NCBI GenBank assembly: GCA_004298505.1 | Contig: SCRO01000091.1 | Location: 1-33,240, forward strand | Origin: Rhodanobacter sp. | GTDB taxonomy: Bacteria > Pseudomonadota > Gammaproteobacteria > Xanthomonadales > Rhodanobacteraceae | DNA length: 33,240 bases | Reading direction: 5' to 3' | Part shown: in pieces, positions 22,152 through 29,694 of the stretch | Position numbering within the stretch: position 1 is the stretch's first letter | How the letters are laid out: each line of letters starts with the position of its first letter | The notes under the pieces: model-generated | What the model saw: the letters and a program-made list of their open reading frames with translations, nothing else | Told to the model about the DNA's origin: nothing | Database searches by the model: none | Translations under genes and position numbers: made by a program

Positions 22152-24641
22152 ATGAAATCCCTCGCAACGCCACTTCCTGCTGCTGCCGACGTTGCAGCCG
22201 CACCCACTTGCCGCGTGCACAAGTTCGGCGGTTCCAGCGTGGCCGATGCCACCTGCTTCCGGTGCGTGGCCTCCATCATCCGTACCGCCGAAGGAGGCCT
22301 GAAGGTGGCGGTGGTATCGGCCATGCACGGCACCACGGATGTCCTGGTCGACATGGCCGTGACGGCAGCCACACGCGGTGACTGGCAGACAGCCTGGGAT
22401 GCGTTGCGCCAGCGTCACCTGGCCACGGCAACCGAGCTGACCGGAGTCGCCGAGAGCCCCACCCACGCACGTCTGCGTACTTCATTCGATGACCTGGCCG
22501 CACGGCTGCAGGCACTGACGGTACTCGGCCTGGCCAGCACCGAGGCAGTAGAACCGGTGCACGGCATGGGTGAGTTGTGGAGCGCCGGCCTGCTGCGCGA
22601 CCTGCTGGCGCAAAGCGGCGAGGCCGACCTGCTGGACGCACGCGACGTGCTGGTAGTGCAGCGCGGCGAGCTCGGCATGATGGTCGACTGGGACACCAGC
22701 GCCGAACGCCTCGCCACGTGGCGCACCGGCCACCATGCACCGATGATCGTGGTCACCGGCTTCATCGCCAGCGACCGCCACGGACGCGCCACCACGCTGG
22801 GGCGCAACGGTAGCGATTACTCGGCAGCGATCATGGCGCGCCTGTTCGCGGCTGCCGAACTGACCTTGTGGGGTGACACCGATGGCGTGCTCTCGGCCGA
22901 CCCGCGGCTGGTACCCGATGCCGTCTCGCTGCCTACGTTGAGCTACAACGAGGCCTGCGAGATGGCCTACTTCGGTGCGCGCGTGATTCACCCGCAGACG
23001 CTGGCGCCGGTGATCGCCGCCGGCACGCCGCTGCGTATCCGCAATGTGCTGGCGCCGCAGGCGCCGGGTACGCGTATCACCGCGCAGTCCGACGGTACGC
23101 CAGTCAAGGGCATCACCGCGGTGACCGGGCTGGCCCTGGTCACCATCGAGGGCGCCGGCATGATCGGTGTACCCGGCACCGCGGAGCGCGCGTTCGGCGC
23201 GCTACACACCGCCGGTGTGTCGGTGGTGATGATCTCGCAAGGCTCGTCCGAGCATTCGATCTGCTGCGTGGTGCGTGCCGGCGAGGCCCAACACGCACGC
23301 GATGCGCTGCAACACGCGTTCGCGCTGGAACTGGCCGATGCCAGCATCCACGCCATCGCCAGCGATGCCGGCGTCGGCGTGCTGGCCGTGGTTGGCGACG
23401 GCATGGTCGGCTCGCCGGGCACGGCCGCGCGCCTGTTTGGCGCACTGGCGCGCGCCGGTGTGAACGTGCGCGCCATCGCCCAGGGTGCGTCCGAGCGCAA
23501 CATCTCAGTGGCCTTGGCCGAGCATGACGTGGCACGCGCCATCCGCGCCGCGCACGCGGCGTTCTGGTTGTCGCCGCAGACACTCAGTGTGGGTCTCATC
23601 GGTCCAGGACGCGTCGGCCGCGTGCTTCTGGAGCAGATCGCCGAAGCGCGCGAACGCCTGTGCCGCGACGTGCAATTGGACCTGCGCGTACGCGCGTTGG
23701 CGGACAGCCGGCACATGTGGCTGGGCCACGCCGGCGCCATACCCCTCAAGCTGGACGAGTCAGCGGCCGCCTGCGACCTGGACGCACTGACTGCGCACGT
23801 GCACGCCGAACACCTGCCGCACGCGGTCATCATCGATTGTTCAGCCAGCGATGCCGTGGCGGCACGCTATCCGGCGTGGTTGGCCGCCGGCATTCATGTG
23901 GTCACGCCCAACAAGCACGCGGGCGCCGGTGACCTGGCGCGCTGGCGGGCGATCCGCGCCGCCTGCGCGCACAGCGGCAGCCGTTTCCGCTACGAGGCCA
24001 CCGTCGGCGCCGGACTGCCGGTGATCCAGACCCTGCGCGAACTGCTCGACACCGGCGATACGCTGGTAGCCATCGATGGCGTCCTCTCCGGCACGCTGGC
24101 GTGGCTGTTCAACAGTTACGACGGCAGCGTGCCGTTTTCCACCTTGGTGCGTCGTGCGCACGAACTGGGCTACACCGAACCCGACCCGCGCGAGGATCTG
24201 TCGGGCATGGACGTGGCACGCAAGCTGGTGATCATGGCGCGCGAAGCGGGCATGCACTTGAGCCTCGCCGACGTCGAGGTGGCAAGCCTGGTGCCGGCCG
24301 AGCTGGTCGAGGTGCCACGCGAACAGGTACTGGATGGACTGCACGTGATCGACGACGCCATGGCCGAACGTCTGCACCAAGCGCGCGAACAGGGGCAGGT
24401 GCTGCGTCACGTTGCGCACATGGACGCCGAGGGTAGGGCACGCGTTGGCGTGGCCGCGTTGCCGGCCGACCATGCATTCGCGCACCTGCGCCTGACCGAC
24501 AACTGCGTGCAGTTCACCACCCGCCGCTATCACGACAATCCGTTGGTGGTGCAGGGACCGGGTGCCGGTCCCGAAGTCACCGCCGCCGGCGTGTTCGCCG
24601 ATCTGCTGCGCATCGGCAGCTACTTGGGAGCGCGTCTGTGA
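22152..24641 (+). CDS. thrA: bifunctional aspartokinase / homoserine dehydrogenase
   Basis: The 829-residue fusion catalyses the first and third steps from aspartate to homoserine, the shared precursor of threonine and methionine. The kinase domain carries HKFGGSSVADA (K24) and TTLGRNGSDYSAA. Two ACT-like regulatory units follow (about 320-470, LVTIEGAGMIGVPGTAERAF and LAVVGDGMVGSPGTAARLFG), which usually bind threonine for feedback. The dehydrogenase NADP site is GLIGPGRVG near residue 480, with VVTPNKHA and the GTLAWLFN and EPDPREDLSGMDVARK signatures further on. The ATG at 22152 has AGGAGG before it. All key motifs are intact, in contrast to thrB, which overlaps it by GTGA. Confidence 0.97.
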   Translation: MKSLATPLPAAADVAAAPTCRVHKFGGSSVADATCFRCVASIIRTAEGGLKVAVVSAMHGTTDVLVDMAVTAATRGDWQTAWDALRQRHLATATELTGVAESPTHARLRTSFDDLAARLQALTVLGLASTEAVEPVHGMGELWSAGLLRDLLAQSGEADLLDARDVLVVQRGELGMMVDWDTSAERLATWRTGHHAPMIVVTGFIASDRHGRATTLGRNGSDYSAAIMARLFAAAELTLWGDTDGVLSADPRLVPDAVSLPTLSYNEACEMAYFGARVIHPQTLAPVIAAGTPLRIRNVLAPQAPGTRITAQSDGTPVKGITAVTGLALVTIEGAGMIGVPGTAERAFGALHTAGVSVVMISQGSSEHSICCVVRAGEAQHARDALQHAFALELADASIHAIASDAGVGVLAVVGDGMVGSPGTAARLFGALARAGVNVRAIAQGASERNISVALAEHDVARAIRAAHAAFWLSPQTLSVGLIGPGRVGRVLLEQIAEARERLCRDVQLDLRVRALADSRHMWLGHAGAIPLKLDESAAACDLDALTAHVHAEHLPHAVIIDCSASDAVAARYPAWLAAGIHVVTPNKHAGAGDLARWRAIRAACAHSGSRFRYEATVGAGLPVIQTLRELLDTGDTLVAIDGVLSGTLAWLFNSYDGSVPFSTLVRRAHELGYTEPDPREDLSGMDVARKLVIMAREAGMHLSLADVEVASLVPAELVEVPREQVLDGLHVIDDAMAERLHQAREQGQVLRHVAHMDAEGRARVGVAALPADHAFAHLRLTDNCVQFTTRRYHDNPLVVQGPGAGPEVTAAGVFADLLRIGSYLGARL

Positions 24642-24865
24642 GCCGCACTACGGCAACTGCTTTCGCGCCGGGCAAGATCGGTAATGCCGGCGTCGGCTTC
24701 GACCTCCTCGGCCACGTCATCGACAGGCCGCGCGCGGTGACCACGGTTCGCTATATCGGCCAGCCGACGGTGCGCATCGACGCCGTCCGCAACAGCGTGG
24801 TCTAGTTGTCCATGCAGGCCGCGCACAATACGGCTGGCGCAGTCTTGATTGCCCTGCACGAAGCA
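24638..24865 (+). pseudogene. thrB: homoserine kinase gene with a stop codon, truncated
   Basis: Starting at GTG 24638 inside the end of thrA, the frame reads RTTATAFAPGKIGNAGVGFD and LLGHVID, the N-terminal signature of homoserine kinase (GHMP family). It runs on to DAVRNSVV and a TAG at 24803-24805. The same frame continues past the stop as LSMQAAHNTAGAVLIALHEA, which also matches ThrB, so a sense codon (probably GAG) became TAG. From about 24866 the sequence is foreign. The ATP-binding GSGMGGS motif and the rest of the roughly 300-residue enzyme are missing. Confidence 0.88.
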
Positions 24866-25485
24866 AAAAAGAGCAGAAAAGGGGACGGAGGTTGAGGTTT
24901 CCCCACGTTTTCATACTGCCACAGCCATCTGATCGAGCAGTGCCAGAGATGGCTTTCGTATCTGCTTCATGAGTTCTTCGAGCCTGGCATTTGACCATCG
25001 TCGCACCAGCGCCTCACGACCCAGTCGCATGATCGAGTACAGCCGTCGCTGGATCGATACGGCATTAGCCATTGATCGATGCCTGCGGTTTCGCAGGCCA
25101 TGCCGACCAGCCAACTGGCGAAGGCTGCCATCGTGTGGAGCAACAGCAGCACCTCGATGCGCTTGCCCTTGCGGGTCAAGCTGTCCTCAAAGGCATGACC
25201 GTAGCGGCGGAATTTGAGATCCCGGAAGGACAGTTCGATCTGCATGCGTCGTGCATACAGTGCGACCATCTGTCGGGCGTTCAAGTGGCTCAGTGCCGGC
25301 GAGGCAACGAGCAACCATGGCTCCCGCTCGCGTGCCGCGTTTTGCTTGCTCTTCTTGGTGCGCGAGGGCACCCCCTGACGATTGCGTTGTTTGCGCCCCT
25401 CCGGGGGTTTGGCATGCACCACCATTCTGCTCGCCCCCACAGAAGGCATCCAAGCATCCGTGAATCCAATGGCCGCTACCGTCAT
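24866..25485 (-). mobile_element. remnant of an IS4-family insertion sequence
   Basis: One end is marked by AAAAGGGGACGGAGG just after the cut thrB, a form often seen at the ends of such elements. The transposase reads leftward from about 25485 to the stop at 24911. REPWLLVASPALSHLNARQM, ALYARRMQIELSFRDLK and HAFEDSLTRKGKRIEVLLLL give the C-terminal part of the DDE domain, including the YARRMQIELSFRDLK helix with the last catalytic glutamate. The frame changes at PYRSS to RRLYSIMRLGREALVRRW and ends LLDQMAVAV. The N-terminal half is missing, so it cannot transpose. The other terminal repeat was not found. Confidence 0.8.
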
Positions 25486-25562: not shown

Positions 25563-26564
25563 TTACCGGATGATAGACATGAGTTCATTCTTCTGCGCCG
25601 GGCTCAACGATTTGAGGCAGTCGTTGGCAAGAGTGAGCAGCAGATCGGTGCTGAGTTTATTGGCCACATCGAAGTCCATGTGCTTGGCCTGTGCCGCGCT
25701 CGGCGGCACATTCAGCCGGAAATAGCGACTTGGCCCCAACTTGGCCTGGCATTCCTGAACTGCCAGAATCTCTTGGGCATTCATTACTAACTCGATGACT
25801 GGCTTGGCCCACTGGAAACCGCGACCGGGGACTGCAGACGGATCTCGACCATGCAACGGGTTCGCTGTGCCTATGCTCAACATTTGGATCTCTGCATCGG
25901 GAAACATCTTCCCAGCGCATTGCAGCGCCTGGAGGTCAGGCGCATTGGCGGCCAATCCCCCGTCAACAAACAGATGGTGCTTGAATGCGTGCGCCGGGAA
26001 GTGCGCCGGTGCCGCTGAAGTCGCCAGCATGGCGTCCATCAGTGTTAGGCCGAGCATGTCCTTCTCTGGAGTGGATTGGCTGCCAAGCAGGTGAAGCTTG
26101 GATGTTGTCCAATTAACCGTGGTTAGCAAGAGTCCAGGTCGATGTTGGCCGATCAGAAGCTTGTCTGCATCATGGATGAGCACCTTAATCGCGGCTCGTA
26201 GGTGATCCGGCTTATATGGAGCGTTGCCTATGAGCTTGCGGAAGCGGCGCAAGCGCATTGCTGGAAAGATCTTTCCGCCCTGATCTTCCAGTATGGCAAG
26301 CAGATCGGATCCCTTGACCCCACAGGACAAGGCTGTAGCCAGGATGCCTCCGATGGAGGTTCCCGCGATGAGGTCAAAGTGCTGACCAAATGGTATTGGC
26401 TTCTTAGGATCTGCGCTGAGTGTCCCCTCCAGTGAGGCGATCACCGCCGCAGTGAACATGCCCCGATAGCCACCGCCTGACAAGCTTAAAACTTTGACCC
26501 GCTTCTTTACCCCCGGAGGCAAACCGGGCGGCAAGTTGAACTGATCCGGAAATGGATCATTCAC
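25563..26564 (-). CDS. patatin-like phospholipase
   Basis: The 333-residue product is a patatin-fold lipid acyl hydrolase. It has the oxyanion loop GGGYRG (30-35), the nucleophile elbow GTSIGG with S70, and the DGG motif with D201 (FVDGGLAANAPD), giving a complete Ser-Asp dyad. The segment after the nucleophile (LLAILEDQGGKIFP) resembles the CapV type of defence phospholipases, which degrade the host inner membrane on activation. No signal peptide or membrane segment is present, so it is cytosolic. The GTG start at 26564 overlaps the upstream stop as GTGA; no earlier in-frame start exists. It is the last gene of a three-gene operon with no CD-NTase, so it is not an ordinary CBASS effector. 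Confidence 0.92.
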   Translation of the reverse strand: MNDPFPDQFNLPPGLPPGVKKRVKVLSLSGGGYRGMFTAAVIASLEGTLSADPKKPIPFGQHFDLIAGTSIGGILATALSCGVKGSDLLAILEDQGGKIFPAMRLRRFRKLIGNAPYKPDHLRAAIKVLIHDADKLLIGQHRPGLLLTTVNWTTSKLHLLGSQSTPEKDMLGLTLMDAMLATSAAPAHFPAHAFKHHLFVDGGLAANAPDLQALQCAGKMFPDAEIQMLSIGTANPLHGRDPSAVPGRGFQWAKPVIELVMNAQEILAVQECQAKLGPSRYFRLNVPPSAAQAKHMDFDVANKLSTDLLLTLANDCLKSLSPAQKNELMSIIR

Positions 26565-27019
26565 AGAGCTTGGACCCTCACGGTCGTCGTGTTCTGCAGC
26601 TGATTGAGATAGACATCACCGTATTCTGTGTAGACGAGATCCATGACATCCGCGGTCGTGATCAACAGGCGAATGTCCTGAGCCACAGGGATGAGCCCCT
26701 CAGGTGTCGTGAAATCCAAGGGCTGGTGCAAGCGGTAGACATGGAATTTTTCCAAGATGGTCTCGTTCACGTCCACCAAGGTCGCCCCGCCGGCTTCCAT
26801 GCGAGACACGGTCGCATTCAATGCTTGTTGCCAAGCCTGCCTATGAGCTTCCGAGGTCGCCCCGTTATTGATGACCGACCGAACAATGGCAATGGCTAAG
26901 CGGCTTAGGACGCAATCCGCTTCTTGGACTGACACCGCCCATTGGACCGCCTTATCCTCCTTACCTAAAAGACCGATCAGCAACTTCGGGCCTAGAAGAA
27001 AGCGTTCTGCTCCTGCCAT
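26561..27019 (-). CDS. PIN-like protein lacking the usual acidic residues
   Basis: The 152-residue product has no certain family, but its pattern follows VapC-type PIN proteins. RFLLGPKLLIGLLGKEDKAV (6-25) aligns with LLDTNVLIALL, with G10-P11 where the first catalytic Asp-Thr belongs. CVLSRLAIAIVRS aligns with the strand and helix that carry the catalytic Glu, here replaced. AQDIRLLITTADVMDLVYTE (113-132) aligns with the segment usually read as D-x-x-IAA-x-A, with D115 retained. It probably keeps the fold but not the nuclease activity. It starts one base after the Phd-like gene stops (TGA-A-ATG) and overlaps the phospholipase, so all three are made together. It could serve as sensor or inhibitor of the phospholipase. 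Confidence 0.6.
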   Translation of the reverse strand: MAGAERFLLGPKLLIGLLGKEDKAVQWAVSVQEADCVLSRLAIAIVRSVINNGATSEAHRQAWQQALNATVSRMEAGGATLVDVNETILEKFHVYRLHQPLDFTTPEGLIPVAQDIRLLITTADVMDLVYTEYGDVYLNQLQNTTTVRVQAL

Positions 27020-27020
27020 T

Positions 27021-27401
27021 TCAAGAACTCAAATCCGTCAATGAATAGGGATCCTGCCTGGAGCCTGCAACCATCACCGATGCATCAAGGGGTTGGGACG
27101 GGGTCTGGATCGAGGCAAGCGTGTCAGCCAAAGAGTTTCGCCTGTTGCTCGATCGAACTATCGCAATCACTTGATCTTCTGTCAGCACCACATACCGCTC
27201 ACTACCTCTCGATATCTGCTGTAAGCGGCCACTCATGGCACCCCTCAACAGGCTGCCGTAGTCCGATTTGAATTTCGAGATCGGCATAGGGGCATCTTTG
27301 ACCATCAGCCCAAGCTTTTCGGCAAGAGAGTGCATCGCAGATAGGAATGTGTCGGATCGAGTCCTGGTCTGTTCGGCGAGGGACTTGATAACGATAGTCA
27401 T
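27021..27401 (-). CDS. Phd/YefM-like protein, first gene of the operon
   Basis: The 126-residue product has a Phd-like core at about 39-83 (MPISKFKSDYGSLLRGAMSG then SRGSERYVVLTEDQVIAIV). It resembles the antitoxin pattern of a short strand, a helix and a strand ending in xAVLVxxxxY. It is longer than a classic Phd, with about 38 extra residues before (helical, charged) and 43 after. Antitoxins of this type bind their own promoter and neutralise a PIN or Doc toxin. The ATG at 27401 is chosen because AGGAGG stands six bases before it; an ATG five codons earlier overlaps that site. A palindrome lies just upstream. Confidence 0.65.
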   Translation of the reverse strand: MTIVIKSLAEQTRTRSDTFLSAMHSLAEKLGLMVKDAPMPISKFKSDYGSLLRGAMSGRLQQISRGSERYVVLTEDQVIAIVRSSNRRNSLADTLASIQTPSQPLDASVMVAGSRQDPYSLTDLSS

Positions 27402-27415
27402 AGCGAACCTCCTCA

Positions 27416-27434
27416 TCTGACCAACCTGGTCAGA
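27416..27434. promoter_or_regulatory. operator palindrome before the Phd-like gene
   Basis: TCTGACC (27416-27422) and GGTCAGA (27428-27434) are perfect inverted repeats around AACCT. A related half site (AACCTGACC) occurs at 27455-27463, inside the promoter spacer. Both lie between the promoter and the gene, the usual place for autoregulation by an antitoxin. Confidence 0.65.
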
Positions 27435-27443
27435 CCCTTTGCT

Positions 27444-27472
27444 ATTATTGCCCCAACCTGACCATGTTGCAA
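27444..27472 (-). promoter_or_regulatory. sigma70-type promoter of the three-gene operon
   Basis: On the minus strand TTGCAA (27472-27467) and AATAAT (27449-27444) are separated by exactly 17 bases, matching the -35 TTGACA at 4 of 6 and the -10 TATAAT at 5 of 6 positions. It stands about 45 bases before the start of the Phd-like gene. Confidence 0.7.
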
Positions 27473-27615
27473 GTACTACTATTCACTTTTGTTCGGCCTA
27501 TTTGCCGTCAGGAAGTGCCCCCAGTCTACTGTTTTATCAACGGTTTTCGTCGTGCGGGCGCTTCGGGCAACGAAGCGAGAAAACGACCTGAAAAGCAAAG
27601 AATGGTGTCAAGAAT

Positions 27616-27695
27616 GGTGTCAGGGACAATTTGGGCACCTCGAAGTCGTGAAAAAAGGTGTCAAGAATGGCAGGAATTGTCCCTGACACCTTTTT
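27616..27695. repeat. palindromic repeat, perfect copy 3 of 3
   Basis: GGTGTCAGGGACAATT (27616-27631) and AATTGTCCCTGACACC (27675-27690) are a perfect 16-bp inverted repeat around 43 bases, followed by TTTTT. Extra partial copies of GTGTCAAGAATGG occur at 27604 and 27659. It can form a long hairpin and could act as a rightward terminator. It lies between the accessory operon and the response regulator gene, at the likely edge of the insert. Confidence 0.85.
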
Positions 27696-27709
27696 AAATG
27701 ACGGGAGAT

Positions 27710-28336
27710 TCACACGATCCAGCTCTGCTCCATGGCATAGCGCACGAGACCGGCGGTCGACTCGATTCCGAGCTTGCGCCGTGTGCTAAGCCGATGCGTT
27801 TCGACCGTGCGGCAGCTGATGCCGCAGATCTGGGCGATGCGCTTGTTGCTGGCGCCGCCGGCGACCAGGATCAGGATCTCGCGTTCACGCTTGGTCAGGC
27901 CCGGCGCTGGCTGCGCCAGGCTGGCCAGGCCCTGGACCAAGGCCGCGCTGTAATAGTTGCCGCCGCTGGCGACGGCCTCGATCGCGGTCAGAATGTCGCC
28001 GGCCGGCGAGTCCTTGAGCACGTAGCCGCGCGATCCAGCACGCACGGACTGCCGCACGTACTCGGGCTTGTCGAACATGCTCAGAATGATGCATTCCGGC
28101 GCCGGCTCAAGGCGGCGAAGCCGGGACACCAGCTCGAGGCCATCGATATCGGGCATGCTGATGTCGACCAGGGCAATGTCCGGGCGTAGGGTCGCGGCCA
28201 GGTTGAGCGCCTCGCGGCCACTGCCACATTCGCCGACCACATGCAGACCGGGCACAGCCTCGAGGTGGACGCGCAGGCCATCGCGCACCAGAGGGTGGTC
28301 GTCGACCAGGATCAGGGTTCGCGGCTCGCCGCTCAT
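27710..28336 (-). CDS. LuxR/NarL-type response regulator
   Basis: The 208-residue regulator has a receiver domain with D12/D13, phospho-acceptor D58 (IALVDISMPDIDG) and K108 (YVLKDS), and a C-terminal LuxR helix-turn-helix (about 144-200, LTKREREILILVAGGASNKR and ISCRTVETH). It should bind DNA once phosphorylated by the upstream kinase, whose stop it overlaps as ATGA. Cache-kinase/LuxR pairs next to DUF3311-symporter genes are known as MctS/MctR-type controls of monocarboxylate uptake. The pair here sits about 3 kb from such transport genes, which makes them the best candidate target. Confidence 0.95.
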   Translation of the reverse strand: MSGEPRTLILVDDHPLVRDGLRVHLEAVPGLHVVGECGSGREALNLAATLRPDIALVDISMPDIDGLELVSRLRRLEPAPECIILSMFDKPEYVRQSVRAGSRGYVLKDSPAGDILTAIEAVASGGNYYSAALVQGLASLAQPAPGLTKREREILILVAGGASNKRIAQICGISCRTVETHRLSTRRKLGIESTAGLVRYAMEQSWIV

Positions 28337-29694
28337 GTCGGGCTCCTCGTGTCGGCATCCAGGGGCAGGACGACGGAGAGGGTCGTGCCGCTGGGACCAG
28401 TGTCGATGGTGACCACTCCGCGGAGGTAGTCGACGCGCCCGTGGATGTTGTTCAGGCCCATGCCATCGCGGACCGCGACGCTCCCGGGGGCAAAGCCATG
28501 GCCGTCGTCAGTGACACTCAGACGCGCGCGCGCGGCGACGACCTTGAGCCCGAGGGTGGCGTAAGTGGCCCCTGAGTGGCGTTCGATGTTGGTCAGCGAC
28601 TCCTGTGCGATACGGAACAGGGTCAGGGCGAGCGGCCCGGGAAGCACGGGTATAGCCTCGGGGAGGGACGCCGTGACGCGGATGCCCGTGCGCTCGGAGA
28701 ACTCGCGTGCGAGTTGTCCGAGGGCTTCGGCCAAGCCGAGGCGATCGAGCAACATCGGATGTAGATCGTGGGAGATTCGGCGCACCTCGCCGATGGCGTC
28801 GGAGACGACGGACAGGCCGCGGCCTATGGCCGATATCGGGTCGCCGTCGCCGGCATTGACGTGGTATTGGGCCAGCTCGAACTGGTACTTGGCCGAGGCC
28901 AGCAGCTGGTTGATGCCATCATGAAGGTCGCGGGCGATGCGCAAACGCTCCTCCTCCTGTAGGTTCACGATGCGCTGGGCCAAGACCTTCAGGTGGCGGT
29001 CAGCGAGGCGATGGACACTGACGTTCAGCGCCATTCCGATCAAGCCGACAAGGGTAACCGCGATCAGGCTGATTGCAGCAATCTGGCCCATGGTGACACG
29101 GATGTTGGCGGCAACGTGGCGCCGCAAGCCGTTCTCGATGCGCGAGACGTCGTCGAGATAGACCCCTGTGCCGAGCACCCAGCCCCAGCGTGGCAGCAGG
29201 ACCACGTAGCCGAGCTTAGGTGTGATCTGGCCGGTCGACGGCTTGCTCCACAGGTAGCGCTGGAAGCCAGATCCATGGCGCGCGTCCGCGACTAAGCGCT
29301 GGATCACCGGCAGGCCTTTCGGGTCGCGTAGATCCCAGAGGTTGTGGCCAACGATATCGGGTTGGCGCGGGTGGACCAGATTGCGTCCCTGCAAGTCATA
29401 GACGAAGTAGTAGCCGTCGTCGCCGTAGTTCATCCGGGCCAAGATATCCTTGGCCGCGTCCTGCGTCGCAGCATCGCCGCGCCCTGAGGCGTAGAGCGGG
29501 CCGATGGCGCTGATGGCAAGTCCGACGTAGTGCTTGAGCTCGACCCGCTTGGCCTGCATCAAGTTGGCGTCGATGATCGTGGCCTGATCCGTCGCCAGAC
29601 GCTGCCCCTGCAGGGCGATGACCCCGGCAATTGCCCCGGCGACCACCACCAAGGGAAGGACGGCTAGCAGGGCGATCTTCGACTTCAGTTGCAT
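28333..29694 (-). CDS. Cache-domain sensor histidine kinase
   Basis: The 453-residue kinase has two membrane segments (about 7-29 and 204-226) enclosing a periplasmic single-Cache domain (about 35-195). That domain carries ARMNYGDDGYYFVYDLQGRN, HPRQPDIVGHNLWDLRDPKG and PRWGWVLGTGVYLDDV, the pattern of sCache_2 sensors of small organic acids. A HisKA_3 dimerisation helix follows with H258 (RIARDLHDGINQLL). The HATPase domain has FRIAQESLTNIERHSGA (N box) and VTDDGHGF and GMGLNNIHGR (G boxes). It should phosphorylate the LuxR-type regulator that overlaps its end. It is divergent from the broken porin gene. Confidence 0.95.
   Translation of the reverse strand: MQLKSKIALLAVLPLVVVAGAIAGVIALQGQRLATDQATIIDANLMQAKRVELKHYVGLAISAIGPLYASGRGDAATQDAAKDILARMNYGDDGYYFVYDLQGRNLVHPRQPDIVGHNLWDLRDPKGLPVIQRLVADARHGSGFQRYLWSKPSTGQITPKLGYVVLLPRWGWVLGTGVYLDDVSRIENGLRRHVAANIRVTMGQIAAISLIAVTLVGLIGMALNVSVHRLADRHLKVLAQRIVNLQEEERLRIARDLHDGINQLLASAKYQFELAQYHVNAGDGDPISAIGRGLSVVSDAIGEVRRISHDLHPMLLDRLGLAEALGQLAREFSERTGIRVTASLPEAIPVLPGPLALTLFRIAQESLTNIERHSGATYATLGLKVVAARARLSVTDDGHGFAPGSVAVRDGMGLNNIHGRVDYLRGVVTIDTGPSGTTLSVVLPLDADTRSPT

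Follow-up and report, generated by a model that had tools for sequence, protein, structure and literature searches.

A three-gene unit with a CapV-family patatin, a PIN-fold protein that has lost catalytic acids and a putative Phd-type partner, found on bacterial genomes and plasmids

The window, by which we mean the whole 33,240-nucleotide stretch of Rhodanobacter sp. DNA analysed here (contig SCRO01000091.1 of assembly GCA_004298505.1), carries three consecutive minus-strand genes putatively encoding a Phd-like protein, a PIN-fold protein that we call pseudo-VapC and a patatin phospholipase (Table 1). ORF coordinates confirmed the compact layout described in the initial annotation: gene 2 follows gene 1 after a single base and shares the letters GTGA with gene 3. 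The trio is also lower in GC than its adjacent flanks (0.53-0.58 in 1-kb windows versus 0.61-0.71 at 22.0-25.5 kb and 0.64-0.67 at 27.5-29.5 kb), as had been claimed, but this is not peculiar to it, since GC is low again (0.53-0.59) between 30.5 and 33.0 kb. The suggestion of a defence-like neighbourhood fared less well: the insertion sequence remnant is real, but the identified neighbours of the trio, this remnant and a two-component system, are not defence genes.

Table 1. Features of the three-gene unit and its surroundings, in window coordinates.
Feature	Position	Strand	Basis or remark
Gene 1, Phd-like protein, 126 aa	27021..27401	-	ORF; start behind GAGGAGG site; alternative start 27416
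Gene 2, PIN-fold pseudo-VapC, 152 aa	26561..27019	-	
Gene 3, CapV-family patatin phospholipase, 333 aa, GTG start	25563..26564	-	Pfam, PADLOC, NF041079
Catalytic Ser70 codon (GTSIG)	26355..26357	-	invariant in aligned trio patatins
Catalytic Asp201 codon (DGG)	25962..25964	-	invariant in aligned trio patatins
Residues 158-170, place of the CapV QxFKTPHH...D stretch, absent here	26055..26093	-	column comparison
First PIN strand FLLGPK (YLLDTN in most VapC-like homologues), catalytic Asp replaced	26984..27001	-	alignment columns
Promoter-like site TTGCAA-17-AATAAT	27444..27472	-	weak consensus match, 9/12
Operator-like palindrome TCTGACCA-acc-TGGTCAGA (= TCTGACCAACCTGGTCAGA)	27416-27434	.	inverted-repeat search
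Second half-site copy (CTGACCATGTTG)	27458-27469	.	inverted repeat I3 with 27422-27433
IS remnant	24967-25485	-	DDE_Tnp_1 match, E 1.1e-6

Several other features surround the unit. The two-component genes beside it (27710-29694) encode a LuxR-type response regulator and a Cache-domain histidine kinase; this flank also looks strain-specific, because its DNA found matches in only 7 of 34 other genomes of the genus, all of them short and weak. Between the trio and these genes (27598-27702), REP-like inverted repeats recur, with the sequence GGTGTCA/TGACACC and lengths of up to 19 nt. At 24638-24805, directly after an aspartokinase/homoserine dehydrogenase frame, what looks by eye like the start of a homoserine kinase is truncated to 55 aa, and a thrB family match over the cut-off occurs elsewhere in the same genome (G000:C114:6531-7319).

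Gene 3 belongs to the CapV family, in agreement with its earlier description as CapV-like. It matches Pfam Patatin (E 3.6e-22), the PADLOC phospholipase Effector model (E 3.6e-64) and NF041079 ('CBASS cGAMP-activated phospholipase'; 214.6 bits, cut-off 200), and CapV 8zr9 is among its solved relatives (E 1.4e-30). Its catalytic dyad is complete, as claimed earlier, and the lipase motifs are common to trio patatins and CBASS CapVs. Another patatin in the same genome, on a contig of 3.4 kb (G000:C111:2489-3331), is of a different type (GGGARG, GTSTGG) and adjoins a frame that by eye resembles a metal ATPase. Elsewhere in the window's order, eight loci (L143-L149 and L151) hold a separate group of patatins with DGGGIRGLV and FKSF or FKNF, whose fetched flanks contain neither a DncV match nor small genes.

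The middle protein has no Pfam match of note, and its assignment to the PIN fold comes from its relatives together with a moderate structure model; a Foldseek search with that model returned nothing with an E value of 0.001 or lower. The structure predictions proposed earlier thus succeeded in part, giving a PIN fold for the 152-aa product but only a poor model for the 126-aa one. The claim that the PIN-like protein lacks catalytic acids was upheld: in the window's protein the alignment places Gly at the position of the Asp and Ile at that of the Glu. The first catalytic Asp is present in none of the eight distinct trio copies versus 58 of the 59 homologues that could be aligned there and have no patatin beside them, and the Glu in one of eight versus 61 of 64. 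These figures cover 64 distinct non-trio sequences, five of which stop short of the Asp column, and 'no patatin beside' means no patatin-profile match in the fetched locus, some loci being truncated by contig ends. Together with the model, these substitutions strongly suggest that the middle protein of the trio is a PIN fold with lost catalytic residues. In the copy from genome G1167 the first Asp is gone, and this pseudo-VapC may have weak nuclease activity because it keeps the Glu and a later Asp.

The first gene is harder to place. Its product in the window has no meaningful family match (best Pfam E 0.088; none in NCBIfam), and a fold search on its poor structure model gave no informative match. 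Proteins at the same position in relatives are more telling: four of five scanned (L003, L004, L009 and L022) match PhdYeFM below the cut-off (E 1.1e-3 to 5.8e-2), the fifth (L006) does not, and one of three scanned with TIGR01552 phd_fam exceeds its cut-off (L009; 22 versus 20.8 bits); the G1167 protein was left out of these family scans. The Phd-like assignment made in the initial annotation appears to fit the relatives but is not seen directly in the window's own protein. From these relatives, the first protein of the trio is probably a Phd-type, DNA-binding, antitoxin-like protein.

Regulatory sites upstream may fit such a role. The promoter with 17-base spacing reported earlier was found, but taken alone it is weak, since it matches the consensus at only 9 of 12 positions and three such sites were found versus 1.1 in shuffles. 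The operator palindrome was found as well, and its half-site TGGTCA/TGACCA precedes both the window trio and that of G603. By eye, paired palindromes lie near promoters in seven lineages: GTGGCCAC occurs twice around TTGACA upstream of the Qipengyuania and Sphingobium trios alike, CGTACGG twice upstream of the Rhizobium trio, GTGGCTAC/GTAGCCAC upstream of the R. leguminosarum trio and ATGTACAT upstream of the G1167 trio, the last two being the least convincing. When the best inverted repeat per region was set against 300 mononucleotide shuffles, an equally good repeat appeared in 14 shuffles for the window, 16 for G603, 4 for Qipengyuania, 0 for Sphingobium, 38 for Rhizobium, 33 for R. leguminosarum and 231 for G1167, where the best repeat is not ATGTACAT. 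The palindromes are individually modest, and the telling point may be that the same site is common to divergent trio pairs. YefM, of the same antitoxin family, binds paired TGTACA palindromes over its own promoter, according to the available text of PMC7730913.

The neighbourhood search proposed in the initial annotation showed that the trio is conserved. Using profiles of all three genes, we found it in the same order and closely spaced at 17 distinct places (20 loci, three of which are second fetches of a place already counted). A plasmid search with the window patatin matched 245 records and led to the trios of Qipengyuania, Sphingobium, Rhizobium L51/94 and R. leguminosarum. Searching 84,980 species genomes with a middle-protein alignment gave 10 confirmed loci, eight in sphingomonads and two in Aurantiacibacter, and sampled searches added two genomes of the window's class, G603 (patatin 47% identical) and G1167, whose first gene was missed by the profile and recognised by eye. 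Across seven lineages (the window, G603, G1167, Qipengyuania, Sphingobium, Rhizobium L51/94 and R. leguminosarum) the trio genes are open frames separated by gaps of at most 15 bases or by short overlaps, a figure that uses chosen upstream starts in Qipengyuania and Rhizobium, where the annotated starts give larger gaps. Pairwise identities over the seven lineages are correlated between first and middle proteins (r 0.74; 10 of 5040 label permutations as high), first protein and patatin (r 0.66; 23 of 5040) and middle protein and patatin (r 0.55; 69 of 5040). As judged from these comparisons, the three genes are inherited together as one unit across lineages, and chance adjacency was rejected on the conservation of the trio and its parallel divergence.

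The unit is rare in genome samples. Sixty sampled relatives gave a match in one, the window's own genome, and 369 genomes of its class gave two, the second of which (G246) is weak, spans 43 residues and lies at a locus without a patatin. In the sampled phylum, the middle profile matched 53 of 398 genomes, and the only trios among 30 fetched loci were those of the window and G603. For the order of G603, 30 of 399 genomes matched, and the trios among 20 fetched loci were those of G603 and G1167; for the class of G803, 19 of 385 matched, and with all loci fetched the sole trio was in the seed genome, G803. The trio-patatin profile matched 42 of 318 genomes in the window's order, and among the best 30 of the 42 loci the window's own was the only trio. 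Sampled searches were run within the phylum of the window and within G803's class, and trios can have been missed because at most 6 to 10 candidates per genome were scored.

Searches of mobile elements with the small proteins gave no trio, whether the window's two small proteins were run against plasmids, the Sphingobium middle protein against phages, or, in viral contigs, both the window's own middle protein and the middle-protein alignment of sphingomonad type; a patatin alignment recovered 11 viral loci, none with a middle-gene match. PADLOC contained no model for the window's two small proteins or for eight small proteins of relatives. The same three-gene layout occurs on plasmid pTM2 of Tistrella mobilis (L111, 2595-4577), with a patatin that reads GGGFLAY and lacks the usual Arg and with small proteins that are very diverged and without a Pfam match. 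It could be a very divergent relative of the trio and is excluded from the trio counts.

Trios lie on plasmid records in four of the seven lineages (Qipengyuania, Sphingobium, Rhizobium L51/94 and R. leguminosarum), that of Qipengyuania beside a RepA gene, and the G1167 trio adjoins an integrase. Eight sphingomonad genomes from several genera (L051-L058) and four plasmid records share a middle protein that is 100% identical, which points to recent spread. In Rhizobium L51/94, the trio (L006) is near Piwi and HEPN/Toprim genes, and there is a Ti plasmid with a canonical CBASS and CapV (L103).

The initial annotation had noted that no CD-NTase gene lies beside the patatin, and we found neither of the two CD-NTase families searched (PF18144 and PF21654) anywhere in the window genome. 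Both are likewise absent from four further trio genomes (G603, G803, G808 and G809), making five of the 11 searched, and from all four trio plasmid records; a CD-NTase-like gene occurs somewhere in the other six. The 11 genomes leave out G1167 and the genome of L057, and in two CBASS control plasmids PF21654 matched and PF18144 did not.

Going beyond what the initial annotation claimed, we found that the patatin lineage of the trio has lost positions kept by CapVs beside a CD-NTase. Seven trio patatins were compared by column with 11 such CapVs taken from the plasmid matches, selecting columns that differ (kept in at least 10 of the 11 CBASS proteins and at most two of the seven trio patatins). 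In window numbering, Lys161 is present in all 11 CBASS CapVs versus none of the trio patatins, His164 in 10 versus none, and Trp250 in 11 versus two; Asp170, present in all 11, is deleted in all seven; and Gln158, Glu216, Arg255 and Asp295 are each present in 10 versus one. Five columns show the reverse pattern, being conserved in trio patatins and not in CBASS CapVs. When the K-T-x-H motif was rechecked in a second sample, it was present in all eight CapVs beside a DncV-like match in the window's order, and KTPH...D is present in all five solved chains displayed, CapV 8zr9 included. Two CapVs without small genes and without an annotated CD-NTase in the fetched flank (L007 and L105) also keep FKTPH. 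In a patatin tree that includes the Tistrella L111 row, the trio patatins form one clade (99/99; 98% of bootstrap trees), with G1167 and Rhizobium on long branches.

We infer that the lost positions correspond to the cGAMP ligand site; in E. coli CapV, this site is described as not yet identified in the available text of PMC9095652. On the alignment evidence, the trio patatin lineage appears to have departed from cGAMP-type CBASS and is probably unresponsive to cGAMP.

We are evenly divided over whether the trio is a mobile module in which a CapV-derived patatin serves as lethal effector and a toxin-antitoxin-type pair stands in the CD-NTase's place as controller. Sequence comparison gives the conservation of the unit, the loss of the first PIN acid, the loss of CapV positions and the intact lipase dyad; autorepression, complex formation, the sign of control (restraint), the trigger and the biological role are our inference. 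In the scheme that we favour, the Phd-like protein would repress the operon at the paired palindromes and hold pseudo-VapC via its tail, while pseudo-VapC, no longer a nuclease, would act as an adaptor clamping the phospholipase in an inactive complex. If the labile Phd-like protein were lost through phage host shut-off, proteolysis or plasmid loss, the complex would disassemble, and the freed phospholipase would damage the membrane, killing or arresting the cell. Such a cell-suicide module would form a new class, with a CBASS effector lineage uncoupled from cyclic nucleotides and gated by protein contact, in which a catalytically dead VapC would link the lipase to a labile Phd-type repressor-antitoxin, as adaptor and inhibitor at once; this fuller statement we put forward tentatively, with somewhat under even confidence. 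Of the interpretation offered earlier, in which an inactivated toxin pair senses for or restrains a phospholipase, the comparative half stands (the conserved trio, the PIN domain with lost catalytic residues, relatives of the first protein that look Phd-type, and a window genome free of the two CD-NTase families searched), and an effect of the small proteins on the phospholipase, toxicity and phage defence are its predictions.

The main rival, which we consider unlikely, reverses the sign of control: pseudo-VapC would sense phage or damaged-host RNA or protein and switch the phospholipase on, with the Phd-like protein regulating expression or restraining the sensor. PIN folds bind RNA, and a fold that is kept while its acids are lost fits a binder; the controller pair also occupies the place of the CBASS sensor. 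Phd-type partners and paired operators, however, are typical of restraint modules. In DS-5, a two-protein defence system with a PIN protein, deletion of the partner unleashed no toxicity, according to the available text of PMC13092281, which again favours activation. Restraint could also operate as we propose and serve post-segregational killing by a plasmid or other element rather than phage defence. To this role we assign the same low probability as to activation: the plasmid copies in four of seven lineages, one of them next to RepA, and the middle protein shared unchanged by sphingomonad genomes and plasmids speak for it, but three copies (window, G603 and G1167) lie on genome contigs without demonstrated plasmid status, the relatives in the CapV family act as effectors in defence, and the Rhizobium L51/94 copy has Piwi and HEPN/Toprim genes nearby.

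A further reading, that the patatin is still activated by cGAMP from a cyclase encoded elsewhere and that the small genes are a bystander toxin-antitoxin pair, agrees with the labelling of the patatin as a CBASS phospholipase by PGAP and by models of both NCBIfam and PADLOC, and with the CD-NTase-like genes in six of 11 trio genomes. We regard it as improbable, given that neither family searched occurs in the window genome and four others, that K161 and H164 are gone from all seven trio patatins while L007 and L105 retain their motif, and that in the lineages compared the three genes have been passed on together. Least credible of all, and scarcely worth entertaining, is a decayed toxin-antitoxin pair that adjoins a patatin by chance; the window's small proteins have indeed diverged past Pfam recognition, but the same gene order in seven lineages, with open frames, tight spacing and parallel divergence, argues against this.

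The trio files under neither CBASS nor VapBC, because a cyclase of the two families searched and the CapV positions are missing and the catalytic acids are lost. Its patatin resembles CapV in that the dyad is intact and the NF041079 score exceeds the cut-off, but ordinary CBASS was rejected in that the genome has no CD-NTase of the two families and the patatin lacks the CapV-conserved positions, K161, H164 and D170 among them. In VapBC and FitAB, too, a PIN-fold gene comes after a small antitoxin-like one, and a palindromic site lies at the promoter. The trio differs from them in that the first PIN Asp is lost in eight of eight copies, the antitoxin-like protein looks Phd-type, and a phospholipase is the third gene after each of the eight copies, in searches seeded with trios; the lost catalytic acids led us to reject an ordinary VapBC.

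The nearest working analogy is HipBST, a three-gene module in which the role of antitoxin falls to HipS, a protein with homology to part of a toxin (available text of PMC10627512). There too, a DNA-binding protein, a small toxin-derived protein and an enzyme toxin share an operon, but the protein families are unrelated, the HipBST effector is a kinase rather than a lipase, and neutralisation is a prediction for the trio. DS-2, as described in the available text of PMC13092281, is a three-gene defence unit that likewise has a phospholipase effector, but there the effector is accompanied by a diadenylate cyclase and an enzyme resembling cGAS, not by PIN-fold and Phd-like proteins, and no cGAS-like gene of the two families searched occurs in the window genome; the window patatin scores 49.4 bits against the DS2_1_antiphage model (cut-off 400). 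Among the literature matches listed, which covered few subscription papers or preprints, there was no description of a Phd/PIN/patatin unit, and PADLOC contained no system of this architecture. Among three-component toxin-antitoxin-like modules, we regard the trio as a new form.

In distantly related bacteria, a phospholipase of the type that antiviral suicide systems employ is thus accompanied by an antitoxin-like protein and a toxin-like protein with a lost active site, and its usual signal-making partner is absent from its side; this points to an undescribed control of a cell-killing enzyme. The module is compact and testable, and plasmids of tractable bacteria carry homologues that can be named. 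It also suggests that annotations as 'CBASS cGAMP-activated phospholipase' take in one clade for which a response to cGAMP is improbable. If the proposed restraint is correct, an immune effector that once answered to a second messenger has come under a toxin-antitoxin controller, and a dead toxin has been retained as regulator of another killer, giving a toxin-antitoxin type with a membrane phospholipase as toxin and a dead toxin as antitoxin. Such a pseudo-toxin adaptor would add a mechanism for how toxin-antitoxin families change partners.
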